Assembly: GCF_000014045.1 (NCBI RefSeq)
Contig: NC_008209.1
Span: 3,371,001-3,435,000, forward strand
DNA from: Roseobacter denitrificans OCh 114
GTDB taxonomy: Bacteria; Pseudomonadota; Alphaproteobacteria; Rhodobacterales; Rhodobacteraceae
Length of the DNA: 64,000 nt
Direction of reading: 5' to 3'
The translations under genes were made by a program, and so were the position numbers. Each line of letters begins with the position of its first letter. The stretch's first letter is position 1. The notes under the pieces were generated by a model, which saw only the letters and a program-made list of their open reading frames with translations, was not told the origin of the DNA and did no database searches. Positions 32,718 through 43,102 of the stretch are shown one piece after another.

Positions 32718-34387
32718 GATTGCATTGAAAACCGCGACTGAAGCAGAACAGCAGAGCTGGAGAAACGAACATCTGCCGGTTCTGAAACACCCTGCGTTAT
32801 TCCTCGCACTCCCAGGACTCTTGAAATAGTTCCGGCACGCGCGGCGTGTCCCGGTCGCGGTCTCCGGTGAGCGCATTGAGCATGTCATCAAGGGATCACG
32901 CAACGATCCTGCGCAGGTGCACGGCGAGTTTTAAGAAGGCCAACTCGATCGGGCGCCGGTCACGGGTATGTGGCAGCAAGAACCAAAGCCAACATCCGGC
33001 ACGTCGCTTTCGCAGCGGCGGCGTTCGCGTGTGGGGCGGGGTTTTCCGGGGCAACCGCAGGGTTCAGCTCCGGCGCGGGGGTGAAAACTGACCGACGGCA
33101 GTAGCGAATGCCGCAACCTTGATGATTCAAAGTGCGACCACGCCCACGGCGCTCAGGCCTGCGGCGCAAATCCGAGTTCCGTGGGGATCTGACTAAATTC
33201 CTGCAACACCAAGTATCACGTAATGCGTTGAAACCTTTGGTTTCGGGCAGCGTTACGTGATCGAGGTTCTTCGCATGACGCTTTAGGATCAAAAGGGGCA
33301 TCCATGAGCAAACCGTTCTCCCCGTTGTGCCCACCCCGGCTGGCCGGTCATGTTGCCTCATCCACTAGCTGGCCCGATATTGCGCAGTGATGCCCCAAGA
33401 CGCAAAAAAGACAACACGCTCTGATTGCTCGGAACCGGCGCGCGCGCTGCTCAATCCAGCCATCGCGCTGTTTCCCTGCCTTTGCGCGGTACCCTTGTCG
33501 CTCGGACCATTGGCACTCAACGAACAACCGCTAGGTCGCGACCCGTGCCTTTTTGGGCGTGATGCCCGGCCCGCTTAGAAACTGCCCAACCACGTCCGCA
33601 TGCGCCTGAACACCGGTCACACCTGCCAGCGCAGCGCTTCGCAACGGCATCCGCATTGTTTCCATGGGACACCACGTCGGACGCATTCGAAGTCGGCAGT
33701 GTTAAGGAGACAAAACACTGCAAGAGAGGCTGCAAATGCACCGGCAGGCCATGATGAAGCAACCTCTCGCGCTTCCCGCGCTGTCTCCGACGCGCCCAAT
33801 CAATCGCCGTCTCCCGAACTGTGGACTCCGAAGGATTCGCTTTGATTTCTAAACATGTAAGACGGTTGGATTCTCCGCTTTCGAGCGCTGCCATTTGAGC
33901 GACGTACTGCGACGCGTTCAAGACCTGCGCCGCCTTACATGCAAGGGCGACGTCACAACCGGCGAGTTTAGTTGCGCGGGACTCTGCGCGCCGGACAGCC
34001 ACCGTTAAATGGGGCGCGCTGGTAACTGGGGCCGTCTATGGACTGACCGAGAATTGGCGCGCTGCGCGAGCGGCAAGACGGTCACGCCGGTTGACCGCTT
34101 GATCATTTTCGGCCGCCGACGGATGTGGGTGCCCACCCATCGCCCCGCAGAAGAACCGGACGAAAAGGAGCCGATTGACCCGTTACAGCTTGCCGCGCTT
34201 GCGTCGGCCCGCGTCGCGTCGCGTGTCTCTGCCGGTGCAGTGCCAAGACTTTTGCCGCCTCCGGTTCCCAAGAGAGGCCATTTGCGCGACTGCCGCTAAA
34301 GGCCGAAAGCGGAGTTGGCGCAAAGCAATAGCTTGCACTCAGCTGAAAAAAGCTTTCAATTGCTTTGAGTTGAGAGGTTTCGTTGAA
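32718..34387. other. 1.7 kb stretch without a supportable gene
   Basis: Between clpA and the giant helicase gene I find only short frames on either strand with no recognised motif, irregular composition and no convincing start sites. The longest is 161 codons on the minus strand (33517-34002). A 96-codon plus-strand frame at 34009-34299 is also unsupported. No inverted terminal repeats, tRNA or CRISPR are seen. It looks like decayed DNA, possibly a remnant insertion, next to the accessory helicase. Confidence 0.55.
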
Positions 34388-37300
34388 ATGGGGTCGCACC
34401 ATCAGGCATTTTTGGCGCGCTGCTTGTCAATTGACATTGAAGTTGATCCCGGGTCGGCAATTGTATTTGGTCTTGCCGCGGTCCGCGTCGATGGTCCGGC
34501 GATACCCAAGCGCACAAAGGGTCTGCAAAAGCGGGATCTTGATGCCCTTCACCAGGCGCTTGAAAACGTCAGTCATCCACTCGGGCACAATATTCTCAGC
34601 CATGATCTACCCCATCTTGCGGCTCTGCGGCCCGACCTTCCGGTAACGGGCGCCATTGATACGCTATGGCTGAACCCGCTGGCCTTCCCGCGCAACCCTT
34701 ATCACCACCTGGTAAAACACTATCAGGATGGTCGGCTCGCCACGGGCCATATCAACGATCCCGAGCAGGATGCGCTGCTGGTATTCGACGTTCTGGACAA
34801 TCAGCTTGAGGCCTTCGGCGCTCTGCACAAGAGCAACCCGGATGCACTTGCCTGCTATCACTACCTGACGACCCGCGCGGAGGGCATGACGGGGTTTGAT
34901 GCGGTGTTTCGTTACATACGCGGACATGATTGCCCCTCTCAGACCGAGGCGCAAGACGCGCTGGTGCGGATGCTGGCAGGGCAGGTTTGTGGTGCCCGGC
35001 TCGCGCAAACGCTGGAGCGGCTTTCAAGCCCCAAAAACGGCTGGCCCATGGCCTATGCGCTGGCATGGATAACGGTCGCCGGTGGGGACTCCGTGATGCC
35101 GCCCTGGGTGCGGGCGCAGTTTCGCAAGGCGTCGCTGATCGTCAAACATTTGCGTGATACGTCTTGCGGCGATCCGAACTGTGCGTGGTGCGCAGAGCAA
35201 AACGATCCTTTGCGCGCCTTGCAAAAATGGTTTGGGTTCGAGGCATATCGCCCGCAACCGGTAGATCCGGAGGGGCGTCCACTGCAGGAACGGATCGTGG
35301 ATGAGGCTATGTCGGGCAAGAGCGTGCTGGGCATTTTGCCGACCGGCACCGGGAAATCTGTGTGCTACCAGGTGCCGGCGTTGTCGCGATTTGACAAAAC
35401 CGGCGCGCTGACCGTAGTGATTTCGCCGCTGGTTGCGCTGATGGCGGATCAGGTGCAGGGGATGGAGCGCGCAGGGTTAACCTGTGCGGTCACCATCAAC
35501 GGCATGTTGTCTATGCCCGAACGTCAGGACGCGCTCGACAAGGTCCGGCTGGGCGAGGCCGGCATTCTGATCATCTCACCAGAGCAATTGCGCAGCACGG
35601 CCGTGCGCTCTGTGCTGGCGCAGCGCGAAGTCGGCCTCTGGGCGATCGACGAGGCACATTGCCTGTCGAAATGGGGGCACGATTTCCGGCCCGACTATCG
35701 TTATCTTGGCCGCTTCATCCGCGAGTTTTCAGGCGATCAACCCCCTGCTCCGATCATCTGCCTGACCGCGACGGCCAAGCCGGAAGTGGTGGCCGAAATT
35801 GTCGAGCATTTCCGCGCCCGTCTGGATGTGCCGCTGACGGTGCTGGACGGCGGAAGTACCCGGCAAAACCTGACATTCGACGTCCGGCCAACAACCAAGA
35901 CCACAAAACTGGCGGATGTGCTGTCGGTCATTGAACAGAGCTTGCCCAGCGAGGGCCGTTCCGGCGCAGTGGTTTACTGCGCCTCACGTAAGTCTACGGA
36001 GCGCGTTGCGGAGTTTCTCAAGGCCCAAGGTCTTGACGCTGCCCATTTTCACGCAGGGCTCAGCCCCGATGACAAACAGACCGTTCAGGAACGGTTCCGC
36101 ATCGGCGATCTGCGGGTGATTGCCGCGACCAACGCCTTTGGCATGGGCATTGACAAGCCTGACATCCGCCTCGTGGTCCATGCGGATATTCCCGGCTCTC
36201 TGGAAAACTACCTGCAAGAGGCAGGGCGTGCAGGGCGCGACAGACTGCATGCAAATTGCGTTCTGCTCTATGCCACAGATGACGTGGAACGGCAGTTTGG
36301 CTTGACCTCCAGCGCGCGCCTTGCCCGGCACGAGATTGGCGCGATCCTCAAAGCGCTGCGGCGGATCGATGACAAGACGCAGAAATCCGGCGCCGTTGTC
36401 GCCACAGCGGGTGAAATTGTTCGCCACGAAAAGGATCAGGACTTCGAACGTGACAGTGCGACCGATGACACGCGGGTCAAGACAGCGGTGTCCTGGCTGG
36501 AAGAGGCGCAGCTGCTCTCGCGCGAGGAAAACCGCGTTCGGATATTCCCGTCGTCTTTGACTGTGCGTTCGCTGGCCGAGGCCAAGACCAAACTTGCGGG
36601 CGCCAAGATCACCATGGCGCACCGCAATGCGCTGCTGGCAATCGTGCGGCATTTGATACAGGCGGCTGCGGATGAAGGCGTGTCGACCGATTCTCTTTGC
36701 GGCGTGGCCGGGTTGACACCGGGAGCGCTGACCAAGGCACTGGTCACTCTGGAAACCTTGGGCATCGCACGCAACGACATGGCTCTGACGGCGTTTGTGC
36801 ACGTCGGCGTCGCGGACGCTTCGATCGCGCGGTTGGGGAAGATCACCGGTCTGGAGCGCGATCTGATCGCTCAGATGCAAGAACTTGCCCCTGATGCGGA
36901 TGCGCAGACCCCACAGCCGCTGAACCTGCCGGAGGCCTGCACAGCCCTCAGGTCACAGGGCCATCACGATGTGCGTCCCGATCAAATTGACAAGCTTTTG
37001 CGCGGCATGGCGCGCGACGGGCGCGATCTGGATGGCGGGACGGGCAACCTGCGCCTGCGCAAGGCGAGCCGCAAGACCCTGATGGTCACTCTCCTGCGCC
37101 CATGGCGTAGCATTGCCCGCACAGCAGAAGTGAGGCATGTGGCTGCCTCCCTGCTGCTATCGCATTTGATCGAAAAGCTGGCGAAAGGCACGCGGGGCAA
37201 GGATTTGCAGGTTGAGACGACCTATGGCGACTTGCTGGCCGCGGTGGCTCAGGACGCGTTTCTCAAGACGTCAGGTGTTGCGGATATGACCCGCCTGATG

Positions 37301-39487
37301 GAACGTGCGTTATTGTGGTTGCATGAACAGGGTGTCCTGAACCTTGGGAAGGGCCTGACCGTCTTTCGCCAGGCCATGACCGTTCATCTCAACCCAAAGG
37401 GCGGACAATTTACGCAGGTCCATTTCACTCCGCTGGAAGAGCATTATGCCGAACAGACCCTGCAAACCCATGTGATGGCGCATTACGCCGAAACCGGGCT
37501 GGTCGCGATGCCCGATGCGATGCGTTTGTCGGAGGACTACTTCCTGCTCACCCAGGACCAGTTCATGAAACGCTGGATGCCTGGCAAAGCGCGAGAGTTG
37601 CGCAGGCAGACCACCAGCGCCTCGTGGAAAAAGATCGTCGAAGACCTTGGCAATAAGACCCAAGAGAGCATCGTCGCCGATGACCGGGCCAGCACCAATG
37701 TGCTGGTTCTTGCGGGTCCCGGTTCTGGCAAGACGCGGGTCCTGGTGCACCGGGTCGCATATCTTTTGCGCATCAAGCGCGAGGATCCACGCGGCATCCT
37801 TGTGCTGGCCTATAATCGCCATGCGGCATCCGAGATCCGGACGCGTCTGGCCGCGCTGGTGGGCGAAGATGCGCGCGGCGTGACGATTTGCACCTGCCAT
37901 GCGCTGGCGATGCGCCTTGTGGGTGCGAGCTTTTCCGGCTTCGATGCGCAAAACGCCGATTTCGACCGCATCGTGACAGATGCGGCGGGGCTTCTGAACG
38001 GTGATGGGCTCTCGAAATCCGAGGCGGAAGCGCAGCGCGACAGTCTGCTGGATGGCTATCGCTGGATTCTGGTCGACGAGTATCAGGACATCGGACCCGA
38101 GGAATACGCCTTGATCTCTGCAGTGGCGGGTCGATCTCTGGAGGATGCCGATCTGAAGCTGAGCCTGTTTGCCGTGGGCGATGATGACCAGAACATCTAT
38201 GCATTCACGGGCGCGTCCGTGGATTTCATTCGCCAGTTTGAGGCGGACTATCACGCCAGACCGTCCTTTCTGATCGAAAATTACCGCTCGACGGCACACA
38301 TCATCGCCGCTTCCAATTCGGTGATCGAACCGGCCCCGGGCCGCATGAAGGCAGAGCAGGCCATCCGCATCAACGCAGCGCGCAGCGTCGGAAATCCGGG
38401 AGGCCGCATGGCCGACGCCGACCCAGTCGCGCAGGGCCGCGTGCAACTCCTAGATGTCCCACCCGGCCCAAAGCCACAGGCCATTGCGGCGATTGATGAA
38501 CTCTTGCGTCTCTGCGCGCTGGATCCGCAATGGGACTGGCGCAAAGCGGCCGTGATCTCGCGCGATTGGAAGAGTCTCGATGCCGTGCGTAGCTATGCCG
38601 AGGCCAAAGGAATCTCCGTCGACATGGCGAATGAGGACCTGCCAACGATCTGGCGCCTGCGCGAGACGCAAGCATTCGTGGCGGCCCTGCGCGCCAAAGG
38701 GAGTGAATTGCTTGGCCTGAATGACATACTTGCGGCCCTCAATGCGCTGCAAGCCAGCAAGTGGACCGAACTGCTCGCTGAAGGCATCGCTGACCTCGCG
38801 CGCGAATTGCAAGACAAGACCATGCCCGCACCGGATGTGATCGAATGGATCGCCGAATGGGCGCGCGACACCCGCGGCGCACAACGCGGGCTGCTGCTTA
38901 CGACCGCGCACCGGGCCAAGGGGCTTGAGTTCGACCATGTGGTAATCCTGAATGGCGGCTGGGACCGAGCCTCCCAAAACGAGGATGCCGCCGCGCCACG
39001 GCGCTTGTTCTATGTCGCCATGACCCGCGCCCGGCACAGCCTCGCGGTGATGACCAGCGGCACCCATGCTTTGCTGACCAGCAAAGGTGACGCGACCCTG
39101 CGCCGAGCCCTGACGCCCCGAGATTCGGAAAGCCACGGCCCTGAAAAGGTTTTTCAACTGCCCTCACTCAAATCAGTCGATCTGTCCTATGCTGGTCGCA
39201 AAGGATCAGATGACCCCGTCCATGCAGCGATCCGCGACGCGCAAACCGGGGACGACATTACACTGGAGTACCGCGCGTCTCGCTGGGTCATTCTTGATAA
39301 AAACAGCCGCGCGCTCGCCCGCATGGCGAAAAACTGGAAACCTCCTGAGGGCAGCTCTTTTCTCTCGGGCACGCTGGGCGCGATTGTGATATGGCGCAAA
39401 ACGGATAGCCAAGAAGAATTTCAACGACATATCAAGCAGGATGAATGGGAAACGGTCTTGCCCGAGTTGGTTTTCGTGGCACCATAA
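34388..39487 (+). CDS. Triple fusion: DEDD exonuclease-like domain, RecQ helicase, UvrD-type helicase
   Basis: One uninterrupted 1699-residue protein. Residues 1-145 look like a DEDD 3'-5' exonuclease: Asp16/Glu18 in SIDIEVD, GHN at 66-68 with Asp73, and HINDPEQD with Asp128. Residues 181-285 are a linker with a possible metal site (Cys260, Cys265, Cys268). Residues about 295-640 are a RecQ SF2 helicase with Walker A PTGTGKS (318-324), DEAH 421-424 and QEAGRAGRD, but without an obvious four-Cys RecQ zinc domain. A winged-helix-like middle follows. Residues about 1090-1600 are a UvrD SF1 helicase with AGPGSGKT (1109-1116), DEYQD (1230-1234), DDDQNIYAF and FYVAMTRAR. The ATG at 34388 is chosen as the first in good context; the frame upstream to 34175 does not look coded. 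A DNA repair or defence role is plausible but unproven. Confidence 0.9.
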   Translation: MGSHHQAFLARCLSIDIEVDPGSAIVFGLAAVRVDGPAIPKRTKGLQKRDLDALHQALENVSHPLGHNILSHDLPHLAALRPDLPVTGAIDTLWLNPLAFPRNPYHHLVKHYQDGRLATGHINDPEQDALLVFDVLDNQLEAFGALHKSNPDALACYHYLTTRAEGMTGFDAVFRYIRGHDCPSQTEAQDALVRMLAGQVCGARLAQTLERLSSPKNGWPMAYALAWITVAGGDSVMPPWVRAQFRKASLIVKHLRDTSCGDPNCAWCAEQNDPLRALQKWFGFEAYRPQPVDPEGRPLQERIVDEAMSGKSVLGILPTGTGKSVCYQVPALSRFDKTGALTVVISPLVALMADQVQGMERAGLTCAVTINGMLSMPERQDALDKVRLGEAGILIISPEQLRSTAVRSVLAQREVGLWAIDEAHCLSKWGHDFRPDYRYLGRFIREFSGDQPPAPIICLTATAKPEVVAEIVEHFRARLDVPLTVLDGGSTRQNLTFDVRPTTKTTKLADVLSVIEQSLPSEGRSGAVVYCASRKSTERVAEFLKAQGLDAAHFHAGLSPDDKQTVQERFRIGDLRVIAATNAFGMGIDKPDIRLVVHADIPGSLENYLQEAGRAGRDRLHANCVLLYATDDVERQFGLTSSARLARHEIGAILKALRRIDDKTQKSGAVVATAGEIVRHEKDQDFERDSATDDTRVKTAVSWLEEAQLLSREENRVRIFPSSLTVRSLAEAKTKLAGAKITMAHRNALLAIVRHLIQAAADEGVSTDSLCGVAGLTPGALTKALVTLETLGIARNDMALTAFVHVGVADASIARLGKITGLERDLIAQMQELAPDADAQTPQPLNLPEACTALRSQGHHDVRPDQIDKLLRGMARDGRDLDGGTGNLRLRKASRKTLMVTLLRPWRSIARTAEVRHVAASLLLSHLIEKLAKGTRGKDLQVETTYGDLLAAVAQDAFLKTSGVADMTRLMERALLWLHEQGVLNLGKGLTVFRQAMTVHLNPKGGQFTQVHFTPLEEHYAEQTLQTHVMAHYAETGLVAMPDAMRLSEDYFLLTQDQFMKRWMPGKARELRRQTTSASWKKIVEDLGNKTQESIVADDRASTNVLVLAGPGSGKTRVLVHRVAYLLRIKREDPRGILVLAYNRHAASEIRTRLAALVGEDARGVTICTCHALAMRLVGASFSGFDAQNADFDRIVTDAAGLLNGDGLSKSEAEAQRDSLLDGYRWILVDEYQDIGPEEYALISAVAGRSLEDADLKLSLFAVGDDDQNIYAFTGASVDFIRQFEADYHARPSFLIENYRSTAHIIAASNSVIEPAPGRMKAEQAIRINAARSVGNPGGRMADADPVAQGRVQLLDVPPGPKPQAIAAIDELLRLCALDPQWDWRKAAVISRDWKSLDAVRSYAEAKGISVDMANEDLPTIWRLRETQAFVAALRAKGSELLGLNDILAALNALQASKWTELLAEGIADLARELQDKTMPAPDVIEWIAEWARDTRGAQRGLLLTTAHRAKGLEFDHVVILNGGWDRASQNEDAAAPRRLFYVAMTRARHSLAVMTSGTHALLTSKGDATLRRALTPRDSESHGPEKVFQLPSLKSVDLSYAGRKGSDDPVHAAIRDAQTGDDITLEYRASRWVILDKNSRALARMAKNWKPPEGSSFLSGTLGAIVIWRKTDSQEEFQRHIKQDEWETVLPELVFVAP

Positions 39488-39973: not shown

Positions 39974-40129
39974 ATGTCCGACGACCCAGACAAAGTTTGG
40001 CCGACCGGTCTTACACTACTCGAAGCCGAAGAAGTTCACAGCTACCTGATTGATGGTACCCGTGTCTTTGGTGCAATCGCACTCGTTGCCCACATGCTTG
40101 TCGCTGCGTCGACGCCGTGGCTCGGATAA
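39974..40129 (+). CDS. pucB: Light-harvesting 2 beta subunit
   Basis: A 51-residue LH2 beta polypeptide that spans the intracytoplasmic membrane once and binds bacteriochlorophyll. The pattern [14 protein letters not shown] and the membrane helix [22 protein letters not shown] closely follows Rhodobacter PucB. His40 (in the AxxxH motif, with Ala36) is the expected ligand of the ring bacteriochlorophyll and His22 lies at the membrane edge. It is followed after 12 bp by pucA. Confidence 0.97.
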
Positions 40130-40141
40130 GGGGGAAAACAC

Positions 40142-40498
40142 ATGAACAATGCAAAAATGTGGCTTGTCGTTTCCCCATCTGTCGGCGTTCCGGTCTTTCT
40201 GGGCGCAGTCGCTGTAGGCTCATTCGCGGTACATGTTGCCGTGCTGAGCAACACCTCATGGGTCTCCGACTTCCTGTCGGGCAATGAGCTGGGAAGCGGC
40301 GATGCGCAAGAAGCGGCCGCAAGGATCCTGGAGAACGCGGATAATGACGTGGCAAACGCCTCTTACGTAGTTCCCTCCGCAGATGGCAGCCAGCAGGTGC
40401 TAGTGGTGATGCCGGATGGCACAACGGCGATGGCGACGTTGCAATCCCCGTCCTACGTTCAGGCCAGCGTTACGCAGCCTGTAACCATAGAGCAATAA
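40142..40498 (+). CDS. pucA: Light-harvesting 2 alpha subunit with C-terminal extension
   Basis: LH2 alpha polypeptide of 118 residues; typical PucA is 50-60. Residues 1-52 align without gaps to Rhodobacter sphaeroides PucA: MWLVVSPSVGVPVFL, then His31, the ring bacteriochlorophyll ligand, then SNTSW40. At positions 44-45, where the sphaeroides protein has Tyr-Tyr that hydrogen-bond the pigment acetyl groups, this protein has Phe-Leu. After residue 53 a polar, Ala/Val/Ser-rich tail of about 65 residues follows, predicted to lie on the periplasmic side. Extended alpha tails are known in R. sphaeroides puc2A. Confidence 0.95.
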   Translation: MNNAKMWLVVSPSVGVPVFLGAVAVGSFAVHVAVLSNTSWVSDFLSGNELGSGDAQEAAARILENADNDVANASYVVPSADGSQQVLVVMPDGTTAMATLQSPSYVQASVTQPVTIEQ

Positions 40499-40598: not shown

Positions 40599-42056
40599 AT
40601 GTTCGAGTATCGCGCATTTGCCTTACGAAAGCTGGTTTCGATCGCGCCGCGCTATTTGCCATTCGCGGACGTCGCCACCAAAGAAGTGCCGCTGTCCCGC
40701 CTGCTGCGCCTCTCCCTCTTCCAAGTCACCGTTGGCATGGCCATCGTGCTGCTTGTCGGCACTTTGAACCGCGTCATGATCGTCGAACTCAGTGTTCCGG
40801 CGACGCTTGTCGCGATGATGCTCGCCCTGCCCCTGTTGTTCGCCCCGTTTCGCACGTTGATCGGCTATAAATCCGATGTGAACGTCTCCGCGCTTGGGCT
40901 GCGCCGGGTCCCGTTCATCTGGAAGGGGACGCTGTATCAATTCGGTGGCTTTGCCATCATGCCTTTCGCGCTGCTGGTCTTGTCAGGCTACGGCGAAGCG
41001 GTCGATGCGCCTCGCTGGATGGGCTTGTCAGCTGCTGCGCTCGCGTTCCTGCTGGTGGGCGCTGGCGTGCATATGGTCCAGACCGTGGGCCTTGCACTGG
41101 CCACGGATCTGGTCGCGGACGAAGATCAGCCAAAAGTCGTGGGCCTGATGTATGTCATGCTGCTTGTCGGCATGGTGCTCAGCGCGCTGGTCTTTGGCAC
41201 ATTGCTGGAAAACTATACGCCGGGGCGCCTCATACAGGTCATTCAGGGGGCGGCGGTCATGACTGTCGCGCTGAACCTGTTCGCGCTTTGGAAACAAGAG
41301 GCGCGGGATCGGGTCCGCGCGCAAAAGATGCAGACGGCGCAACACGCGCCCTTTCGCGAAACTCTGGCCGAACTGGTCCAGAAGCCCGGCCGCAAACGGC
41401 TTTTAGTTGTCATCGCACTTGGCACCTTTGGCTTTGGGGCCGCTGATGTGCTGCTTGAACCTTATGGCGCGCAGGCGCTCGGGTTTTCGGTAGCGGAAAC
41501 GACACGGCTGACCGCCCTTTTGGCGGGTGGCACGTTGATCGGCTTTGGCATCGCCTCGCGCGTTCTGAGCGAGAATGGCGCGGCCACACGGCTCGGGCTG
41601 ATCGGTGCGCTGATCGGGATACCGGGGTTTTCCGGCATCATCCTGTCGGCTTTTGGCGGCGGTGCGCCGCTGTTTCTGGCTGGAACACTGGCAACAGGTA
41701 TCGGCGCGGGCCTCTTTGGTCATGCCACATTGACCGCGACCATGCGCTCGGCTGAGCGTGAACAGATCGGCCTTGCGCTCGGCACTTGGGGTGCCGTTCA
41801 GGCAACAGCCGCTGGTGTCGGTGTGGCGCTGGCAGGCATCGTGCGCGACATCATCGTCAACATGTCCACCTATGCCGACCTGCCCGCGCATGCACCCTAT
41901 AATGCGGTTTTCCTGATCGAGATTGTTTTCCTCGCGCTCGCATGCGCTACACTCATACCTCTGTGCGGCAAAGCAAGGACGGCGCAGCACCCGGGTATTC
42001 ACCCATCCAAGCGGTCCATACCGGATCCGCATCCTAAATCGGCGGAGGCATCATGA
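40599..42056 (+). CDS. pucC: PucC-type LH2 assembly protein (BCH2 family, MFS fold)
   Basis: A 485-residue integral membrane protein of the PucC/LhaA/BCH2 group with about twelve membrane segments. PucC is needed for LH2 assembly, probably delivering bacteriochlorophyll or shepherding subunits. Typical segments include the N-terminal LRLSLFQVTVGMA, GTLNRVMIVELSVPA, the loop GLRRVPFIWKGTLYQFGGFAIMP and the central FGAADVLLEPYG. The ATG at 40599 has GGGAGG six bases upstream, so the longer frame is rejected. The stop overlaps the start of the repeat-protein gene by 4 nt. Confidence 0.94.
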   Translation: MFEYRAFALRKLVSIAPRYLPFADVATKEVPLSRLLRLSLFQVTVGMAIVLLVGTLNRVMIVELSVPATLVAMMLALPLLFAPFRTLIGYKSDVNVSALGLRRVPFIWKGTLYQFGGFAIMPFALLVLSGYGEAVDAPRWMGLSAAALAFLLVGAGVHMVQTVGLALATDLVADEDQPKVVGLMYVMLLVGMVLSALVFGTLLENYTPGRLIQVIQGAAVMTVALNLFALWKQEARDRVRAQKMQTAQHAPFRETLAELVQKPGRKRLLVVIALGTFGFGAADVLLEPYGAQALGFSVAETTRLTALLAGGTLIGFGIASRVLSENGAATRLGLIGALIGIPGFSGIILSAFGGGAPLFLAGTLATGIGAGLFGHATLTATMRSAEREQIGLALGTWGAVQATAAGVGVALAGIVRDIIVNMSTYADLPAHAPYNAVFLIEIVFLALACATLIPLCGKARTAQHPGIHPSKRSIPDPHPKSAEAS

Positions 42057-43102
42057 CACAAGTCATTACGCGATATTTTGAAAACGCGGCACAGGCGTCA
42101 TTGATAAAACGAACACTCACTGTGGAGCGGTTTCCCGGACGCGACCTGAAGGTATTTACCGAGGCCCAGGGGCTGGTCGAGGCACTGACCGCTGAAAAGG
42201 TCGACGCTGATACGGCTGAGGCCTACAAAAAGAAACTGGCATCCGGCGGTGCGGTTTTGTTGGCCAAGGCAACCTATGTGCCGCTCGGCGCGGCGCGGAT
42301 GGTGCGTGAGATCACGGCAAGGATGGGGGCCGCCGATATGGGTGACCTCGTCGAAGAGGTCTATGTCAAGGACCCGCCCGGCAGAACCGCCAGCGTGCTG
42401 AGCGGTCATCCCCACATGCTGTCGCGCAAACGCGACCCGGAATCGTCGACATATCACATGGCGGACTGGCCCATCCCCCTGATCAGCCGCCGCAAACCGT
42501 CTGACGAATTTGCCATTCCAAGGCATGGGCGGATGGCCAACTTCCCGATCCCCCTGCTGAGCAAGCGCAAGCCGAAAGACAACTTTGCCTTTCCACGCCA
42601 CGCGCGCATGGCGAATTTTCCCATCCCGCTGCTGAGCAAGCGTAAACCTTGGGACATTTTTGCCTTTCCGCGCCACAAGCGTATGGCAGATTTCCCGATC
42701 CCCCTGCTGAGTGACCGCAAACCCTATACGGGGACGATGATCGGGCGGCACACGCGGATGGCCAATTGGCCCTTCCCGCATCTCATCAATGGGAAAACGG
42801 GCACGAACTCCCTGATCCCGGGGGGGCCGCGCATGGCCAATTTCCCCATTCCGTTGCTGAGCAAGCGCAAGCCGGCAGACAAATTCGCCTTTGAGCGTCA
42901 CGCGCGGATGGCCAATTTTCCCATCCCCCTGCTGAGCAGACGTAAACCTATTGATAAGTTTGCTTTCCCGCGTCATGCGCGGATGGCGGATGCAATTCTG
43001 CCGCTGACCGTGCGCCGTGCGGATACCGAAGCGACCGAAGGCGAGGCGGCGCGGTTCTCCTTTTCCAAACTCTTTGGATTCCCAACGCTGCTGCGCCGCT
43101 GA
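42053..43102 (+). CDS. Unrecognised protein with 25-residue tandem repeats, coupled to pucC
   Basis: A 349-residue protein whose family I do not recognise with certainty. Residues 1-115 form a compact alpha/beta-looking domain with no signal peptide; residues 116-134 are a linker. From residue 135 seven full repeats of 25 residues plus a partial one follow. The consensus is RMANFPIPLLS, then KRKP, then xDxFAFPRHA. Repeats 4 and 5 are diverged. A short C-terminal tail ends the protein. The ATG overlaps the pucC stop (ATGA), so it is made with the LH2 genes. No catalytic motif is seen. The alternating hydrophobic and cationic blocks suggest contact with membrane surface or with LH2; this is inference. 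Confidence 0.88.
   Translation: MTQVITRYFENAAQASLIKRTLTVERFPGRDLKVFTEAQGLVEALTAEKVDADTAEAYKKKLASGGAVLLAKATYVPLGAARMVREITARMGAADMGDLVEEVYVKDPPGRTASVLSGHPHMLSRKRDPESSTYHMADWPIPLISRRKPSDEFAIPRHGRMANFPIPLLSKRKPKDNFAFPRHARMANFPIPLLSKRKPWDIFAFPRHKRMADFPIPLLSDRKPYTGTMIGRHTRMANWPFPHLINGKTGTNSLIPGGPRMANFPIPLLSKRKPADKFAFERHARMANFPIPLLSRRKPIDKFAFPRHARMADAILPLTVRRADTEATEGEAARFSFSKLFGFPTLLRR
42455..43024 (+). repeat. 75-bp in-frame tandem repeats (seven full units plus a partial)
   Basis: Units begin at 42455 and every 75 bp to 42979, with a partial unit to about 43024. All indels are absent, so the period is exactly 25 codons. DNA copies differ mainly by synonymous changes (for example four different spellings of the five codons for NFPIP), which shows that the peptide and not the DNA is conserved. 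Confidence 0.95.

Follow-up and report, generated by a model that had tools for sequence, protein, structure and literature searches.

The light-harvesting complex LH2 serves as a textbook example of how light is harvested, and its ring is described as having two subunits; the puc operon of Roseobacter denitrificans OCh 114 raises the question of what a further gene, directly behind pucC, contributes to this complex. In the window (the whole stretch of 64,000 nucleotides analysed), the forward strand carries pucB for LH2 beta (39974..40129; PF00556), pucA for LH2 alpha (40142..40498; PF00556), pucC (40599..42056; PF03209, E 7e-139) and then a gene for a protein of 349 amino acids (42053..43102, stop included). 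The start of pucC was placed by eye at the ATG of MFEYR, and the domain search used two extra upstream codons. The ATG of the fourth gene overlaps the pucC stop by four bases, as ATGA, in agreement with a preliminary description of the locus. A scan for promoters and terminators found nothing above chance. Elsewhere in the window, positions 34175-39487 hold a 1770-aa ORF that by eye looks like a fusion of exonuclease-type, RecQ-type and UvrD-type helicase parts.

The protein is dominated by an array of 25-residue repeats. Behind an N-terminal domain (residues 1-134; 42053..42454) come seven complete units, an eighth that is degenerate, and a conserved C-terminal tail, FSFSKLFGFPTLLRR (43055..43099), which confirms the seven and a half repeats counted earlier; the earlier figure of about 115 residues for the N-terminal domain was too low, as 134 residues precede the first unit. 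Units 1 (HMADWPIPLISRRKP...; 42455..42529), 2 (42530..42604), 3 (42605..42679), 4 (42680..42754), 5 (42755..42829), 6 (42830..42904), 7 (42905..42979) and 8 (RMADAILPL...; 42980..43054) begin at residues 135, 160, 185, 210, 235, 260, 285 and 310. The even spacing, with zero indels, bears out an exact 25-codon period, and Tandem Repeats Finder reported a period of 75 nt at 42473-42723 with a score of 236. The core units (2, 3, 6 and 7) have 21-22 of 25 residues in common; between them 52-93% of synonymous sites differ and 6-14% of nonsynonymous sites, and thus the proposal that the DNA differences are mostly silent and that selection acts on the peptide is supported. Units 4 and 5 have diverged, as had been noted: unit 4, in its second half, so that it is identical to units 1-3, 6 and 7 at 14-15 of 25 positions and to unit 5 at nine, and unit 5 throughout, with 8-10 of 25 positions identical to any other unit of the protein. 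The claim of one His per unit holds for units 1-4, 6 and 7, in which it occupies position 24, and fails for unit 5. The repeats are basic (the pI of the protein is 10.7) and there is no transmembrane segment, the top 19-residue hydropathy being only 1.2.

The protein has neither the LHC domain (PF00556) nor a transmembrane helix, and we found no name for the family in the open-licence literature as searched. The N-terminal domain is distantly and weakly YflT-like (PF11181): seven of 33 members of profile A4 matched YflT at E≤1, with a best E value of 0.0013; in a further search the best score was 19.5 bits against a curated cut-off of 26.2. All matches fell below the Pfam cut-off, and the window protein itself gave no YflT match.

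The window protein has 386 relatives at E≤0.001, of which the best 120 are mostly 345-350 aa long, and we counted units in these 120 and the window protein with a script that steps from unit to unit. Eight units proved to be the rule (104 of the 121 proteins); seven were found in six proteins, four in four, six in three, nine in two, and three units and one unit in one protein each. The step between units is exactly 25 residues in 791 of 809 cases. Among 60 proteins sampled from the 104 with eight units, unit 5 is best kept at its own place, with an identity of 0.76 to itself across proteins and of 0.32-0.34 to other units. In the 104 eight-unit proteins, His24 is conserved in units 1-4, 6 and 7 (96-104 proteins each), and unit 5 has Gly at this position in 74. 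Unit 5 is therefore a distinct, place-conserved unit rather than a decayed one. Since unit number, unit identity and steps are largely fixed and unit 5 is kept in place, the array is a series of units in fixed order rather than a repeat that is free to expand.

The gene follows LH2, and not phototrophy in general. We drew a sample of 295 Rhodobacteraceae genomes, some of them incomplete, and found the repeat protein in 35; a reaction-centre gene was present in 122 genomes, among them all 35 carriers (P∼1e-15). The protein was also looked for in non-phototrophs, and it occurred in none of the 173 Rhodobacteraceae genomes without a reaction-centre match. To define LH2-positive genomes we required at least four LHC matches (37 genomes) and added G098, which has two LHC matches just upstream of pucC and the repeat gene, for a set of 38; G083, with three LHC matches, was scored as LH2-less. 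The repeat gene is present in 34 of the 38 LH2-positive genomes but in only one of the 84 LH2-less phototrophs (Fisher P∼1e-24, for genomes that are not independent and uncorrected for kinship). Because 83 of 84 LH2-less phototrophs do not have the gene, we rejected the reading that the co-occurrence reflects mere phototrophy. The four LH2-positive genomes with no detectable family member (G051, G091, G111 and G252) are of the Rhodobacter type. Profile A4, applied to the same 295 genomes, gave 36 positives, the sole addition being weak matches to two stress-type proteins in G058. An empty search with profile A5 means little, since A5 likewise failed to report members in three genomes known to contain one.

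The position of the gene points the same way. In 34 of 34 cases (33 loci and the window) pucC is followed, on its own strand, by a copy at a distance of about 300 bases or less from the pucC match. We also scanned named GTDB genomes for pucB and kept the best 80 of 408 loci, a set that is biased towards window-like pucB and overlaps the 295-genome sample; all 80 genomes carry the repeat gene, 77 in the locus and three elsewhere or on another contig, and in one of the 77 (L126) the gene is split over two frames. The sole carrier among the 84 LH2-less phototrophs, G126 (L046), has a frameshifted repeat gene in two frames and an internally deleted pucC; pucB and pucA were not found, the LHC matches lie on another contig, and the reaction-centre and LH1 genes remain. 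In this genome the LH2 operon is decaying and the repeat gene along with it. Membership of the repeat gene in the LH2 operon, as first suggested from the overlap with pucC, is thus strongly supported. A search of PLSDB found no plasmid-borne copies.

The long protein of the window is one form of a wider family. A short form of about 200-240 aa has a like N-domain and fewer motifs (M-S-x-x-F-W-P-M-P-L-L-S) with a period of 26. A simple motif rule classes 19 of the 79 family ORFs in the named loci as long and the other 60 as not long, which makes the short form more frequent in these loci. Short and long forms occur together in three genomes. We noted short and long genes in tandem, or a long form away from pucC, in L032, L037, L044 and G688 (L115 is probably the same contig as L032). 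Runs of 15-residue units with H-K-F-M-A-K-F-P occur in at least two proteins of the long type; in L044 (6264-7343) and L123 (2394-3605), 15-residue units, HKFMAKFPFGHIVPG, largely replace the 25-residue units, and a unit-5-like element is kept.

We also made a class-wide search of 385 genomes, which gave 13 positives besides that of the window. The match adjoins pucBA in six of these (G358, G389, G392, G441, G618 and G631), and a seventh such operon, in G539, with the order pucB-pucA-gene-pucC, was met in a search with the γ subunit discussed below. Seven alphaproteobacterial genomes outside the Rhodobacteraceae therefore have a member with a like N-domain beside pucBA; in G389 and G392 it is on the strand opposite to pucBA. 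The other seven class-level matches (G338, G433, G538, G611, G624, G638 and G651; E 1.9e-8 to 2.3e-4) were N-domain only or weak and were set aside; five of these proteins were read (L186 and L190-L193) and are stress-type proteins without such repeats, G338 and G624 being outside this reading. The E values of G358, G441, G618 and G631 (8.5e-9 to 1.2e-7) scarcely improve on that of the set-aside G638, or are poorer, and these four were kept because of their repeats and their place beside pucBA. As G539 was in the sample and was missed by profile A4, the counts outside the Rhodobacteraceae are lower bounds, and absence there means little given incomplete genomes and finite search sensitivity. 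For the G539 protein, 335 relatives reach E≤0.001, and the source names among the 120 listed include Myxococcota, Woeseiaceae, Lysobacterales and Rhodospirillaceae MAGs.

Profile comparison shows the distant forms to be homologous to those of the Rhodobacteraceae (hhalign probability 99.4%, E 1e-21; 97.2%, E 4e-11 when only the long forms are used). In the distant form, S-S-x-F-G-x-P-L-L-S recurs every 16 residues in two alternating kinds of unit, and its autocorrelation is therefore even stronger at 32. In the 120 listed relatives of one distant member, neighbouring motifs are mostly 16 residues apart (211 cases), with 35 cases of 32 and 27 of 25; the G389 member has only one or two motifs. 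Periods within the family are thus 25, 26, 16 and 15.

We considered whether the family is related to the spectral type of LH2. A Tyr pair of LH2 alpha red-shifts B850, and R. denitrificans OCh 114 has a single LH2 band at about 806 nm. The pucA product of the window has F44-L45, as read by eye, and no Tyr pair. A published survey (PMC12654162) lists a single peripheral antenna near 800 nm (LH4) in Roseobacter denitrificans, R. litoralis, Roseicyclus mahoneyensis, Rubrimonas cliftonensis and Dinoroseobacter shibae, with F44-L45 as a common motif; a figure legend gives the D. shibae puc operon as four genes, Dshi_2897-2900. The family is carried by R. litoralis (P0001) and R. mahoneyensis (L113). 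When we tabulated alpha residues 44/45, counting rows in which one genome can appear twice, the rows with the gene in the locus were FL in 90 cases, YL in nine, other in five and YY in none. The 26 rows without the gene in the locus comprise 21 YY, which represent seven pucA genes of the four family-less LH2 genomes, and five others (FL in three, YL and FA in one each), which come from G098, L114, L138 and L171 and have the family elsewhere in the genome. In the distant operons, eight of nine alpha genes encode no H-bonding pair and one encodes YW, so the link between the family and the missing H-bonding pair is not strict, and clade effects may account for it.

The alpha subunits also differ in their C-termini. 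The window pucA (40142-40498) and the pucA genes of L031-L066 encode a conserved C-terminal extension of about 50 residues (..EVTVILPDGTTARAILQP..) in most operons read, which is expected to lie on the periplasmic side. Rhodobacter-type alphas have no such extension, and their tails are short or rich in Ala, Glu and Pro; the family-positive L067 has a short alpha. In the Rhodobacter-type loci L074, L099 and L100, a second LH2 alpha gene encodes a very long C-terminal tail rich in Ala, Glu and Pro, giving 263- and 326-aa proteins.

What, then, would such a protein do? We favour, with moderate confidence, the reading that it is an accessory LH2 subunit with a role like that of the γ subunit of Rhodopseudomonas palustris. 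What is shown, and speaks for this reading, is the anatomy of the repeats, the place in the operon, the co-occurrence with LH2 and the joint decay in one genome, the deeper family beside pucBA, and a period of 16 in distant members that equals that of γ. By analogy with γ, we infer that the protein binds the ring: the soluble N-domain would sit in the cytoplasm, and the basic, proline-rich repeats would be extended as a ribbon along the cytoplasmic rim, with roughly one unit per alpha-beta pair. At one unit per pair, about eight units could cover a ring of 8 or 9 members entirely or for the greater part. A recurring H-x-x-M-A-x-(F/W)-P element, with six conserved His in all, may supply a ligand in each unit, and the His-bearing units might each hold an extra monomeric bacteriochlorophyll of the B800 type, which would add to the single band at about 806 nm. 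Points against this γ-like reading are that homology to γ is not established, that periods differ within the family, that the candidate ligand is His instead of Ser, that γ has no N-domain, that four LH2-positive genomes have no member, and that two of the distant genes lie on the opposite strand.

The main rival is that the protein acts with PucC in LH2 assembly and is absent from the finished complex, its repeats keeping several alpha-beta pairs together on the surface of the membrane up to ring closure. We regard this as rather unlikely, but it keeps the preliminary suggestion of a scaffold or assembly factor a live option. It would suit the overlap with pucC, which probably reflects translational coupling, as well as the basic repeats without a transmembrane segment, the small, soluble, distantly YflT-like N-domain, and the presence of a second copy, unlinked or in tandem, in three genomes. 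An assembly partner sits less easily with a nearly fixed repeat number and with the arrangement of distant operons, in which the gene lies between two pucBA pairs (L196 and L199) or after pucA and before pucC (L197, L198 and L202), places typical of a structural gene. A role as a general antenna assembly factor is at odds with the near-absence of the gene from LH2-less phototrophs noted above.

Two further readings fare worse. The repeats could organise LH2 by bridging neighbouring rings or by tying LH2 to RC-LH1 or the membrane surface, a role that would suit multivalent basic repeats and a separate N-domain able to bind another partner; we consider this improbable, as the fixed order and number of distinct units exceed what a flexible linker needs. 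A transcriptional regulator is hardly credible. The suggestion comes from the name alone: the long form is listed publicly as 'PucR family transcriptional regulator' (P0001, P0003, P0005 and others). Searches of the window protein against Pfam and NCBIfam at E≤1 found no PucR domain and no HTH or other DNA-binding domain, on which ground we rejected a PucR-type regulator, and we know of no DNA-binding fold that resembles the repeats. The name is apparently a confusion of puc names, and this misleading database entry is corrected here.

If the γ-like reading is true, a third LH2 subunit would be an ordinary feature, beyond one genus: its scope would take in the Rhodobacteraceae, seven genomes of other alphaproteobacterial families, and relatives in MAGs named Gammaproteobacteria and Myxococcota. 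It would also offer a direct genetic handle on the single band near 806 nm of aerobic phototrophs such as Roseobacter. More tentatively, we propose that the LH2 of most proteobacteria may have an overlooked third subunit, in the form of tandem-repeat ribbons encoded next to pucBA and pucC, whose clade-varying period and number would set the number of ring positions with an extra monomeric bacteriochlorophyll. In Roseobacter such a ribbon would help to make the puzzling single 806-nm band, and the LH2 of Rhodobacter, the textbook model, would be an exception that lost the ribbon.

Among known systems, PucE of R. capsulatus is a 14-kDa LH2-associated protein and a puc operon product encoded downstream of pucC; by this description, the window protein shares with it the place downstream of pucC and, putatively, the association with LH2. 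The general stress proteins of the YflT family (PF11181) resemble part of the window family in a weak profile match of the N-domain, but the stress-type proteins that we read have no such repeats, unlike the window family.

The closest described protein is γ. Reported in 2022, it is described (PMC9618040; PDB 7ZCU, 7ZDI, 7ZE3 and 7ZE8) as an extended ribbon near the cytoplasmic side of Rps. palustris LH2 that encloses six of the nine alpha-beta pairs and has six repeats, in each of which a Ser ligates one extra B800 bacteriochlorophyll; a BLASTp search by its authors confined γ to Rhodopseudomonas. The PDB chain has 97 residues in 16-residue units and no N-domain, whereas the window protein is 349 residues long and combines an N-domain with eight basic units of 25 residues. 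The Mg ligand of γ is Ser, while the window-type candidate is the conserved His, which is not kept in short and distant members; the distant members have a conserved Ser pair before Gly, near that position. The G-x-P-L-(I/L) core at period 16 is found in distant members, and the units of the window protein carry F-P-I-P-L-L and recur every 25 residues.

Sequence comparison with γ gave no significant similarity. Searches of the PDB found no match for the long forms at E≤10 and chance-level matches only for one distant member, and hhalign gave a probability of 4.6% for γ against the distant members. In a permutation test that shuffled positions in the same way within each repeat, 35 of 3000 scrambles scored as high as γ against 26 distant members (superseding a first run with three of 400), and some scrambles scored up to twice as high as real γ; the signal was weaker for the window's long type (22 of 400), the short type gave five of 400, and an N-domain control gave no signal (293 of 500). 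A plain search with γ found G539 (E 0.0065), in an LH2-linked gene; we rejected it as proof of homology, since the matches of G612 (4e-4) and G434 (4e-3), two genomes of a distant family whose matches we take as probable chance, do as well or better.

Homology to γ is thus only suggestive at the sequence level, and for this reason we say that the family works like γ and do not file it as γ. The likeness lies in occurrence with LH2, in tandem repeats with a P-L-(I/L) core, in the lack of a transmembrane stretch, and in a period of 16 that γ and the distant members beside pucBA have in common; a place on the cytoplasmic side, shown for γ, would extend to the window family by analogy. A stoichiometric partner of LH2 at the membrane surface, as the preliminary description put it, would fit γ well.
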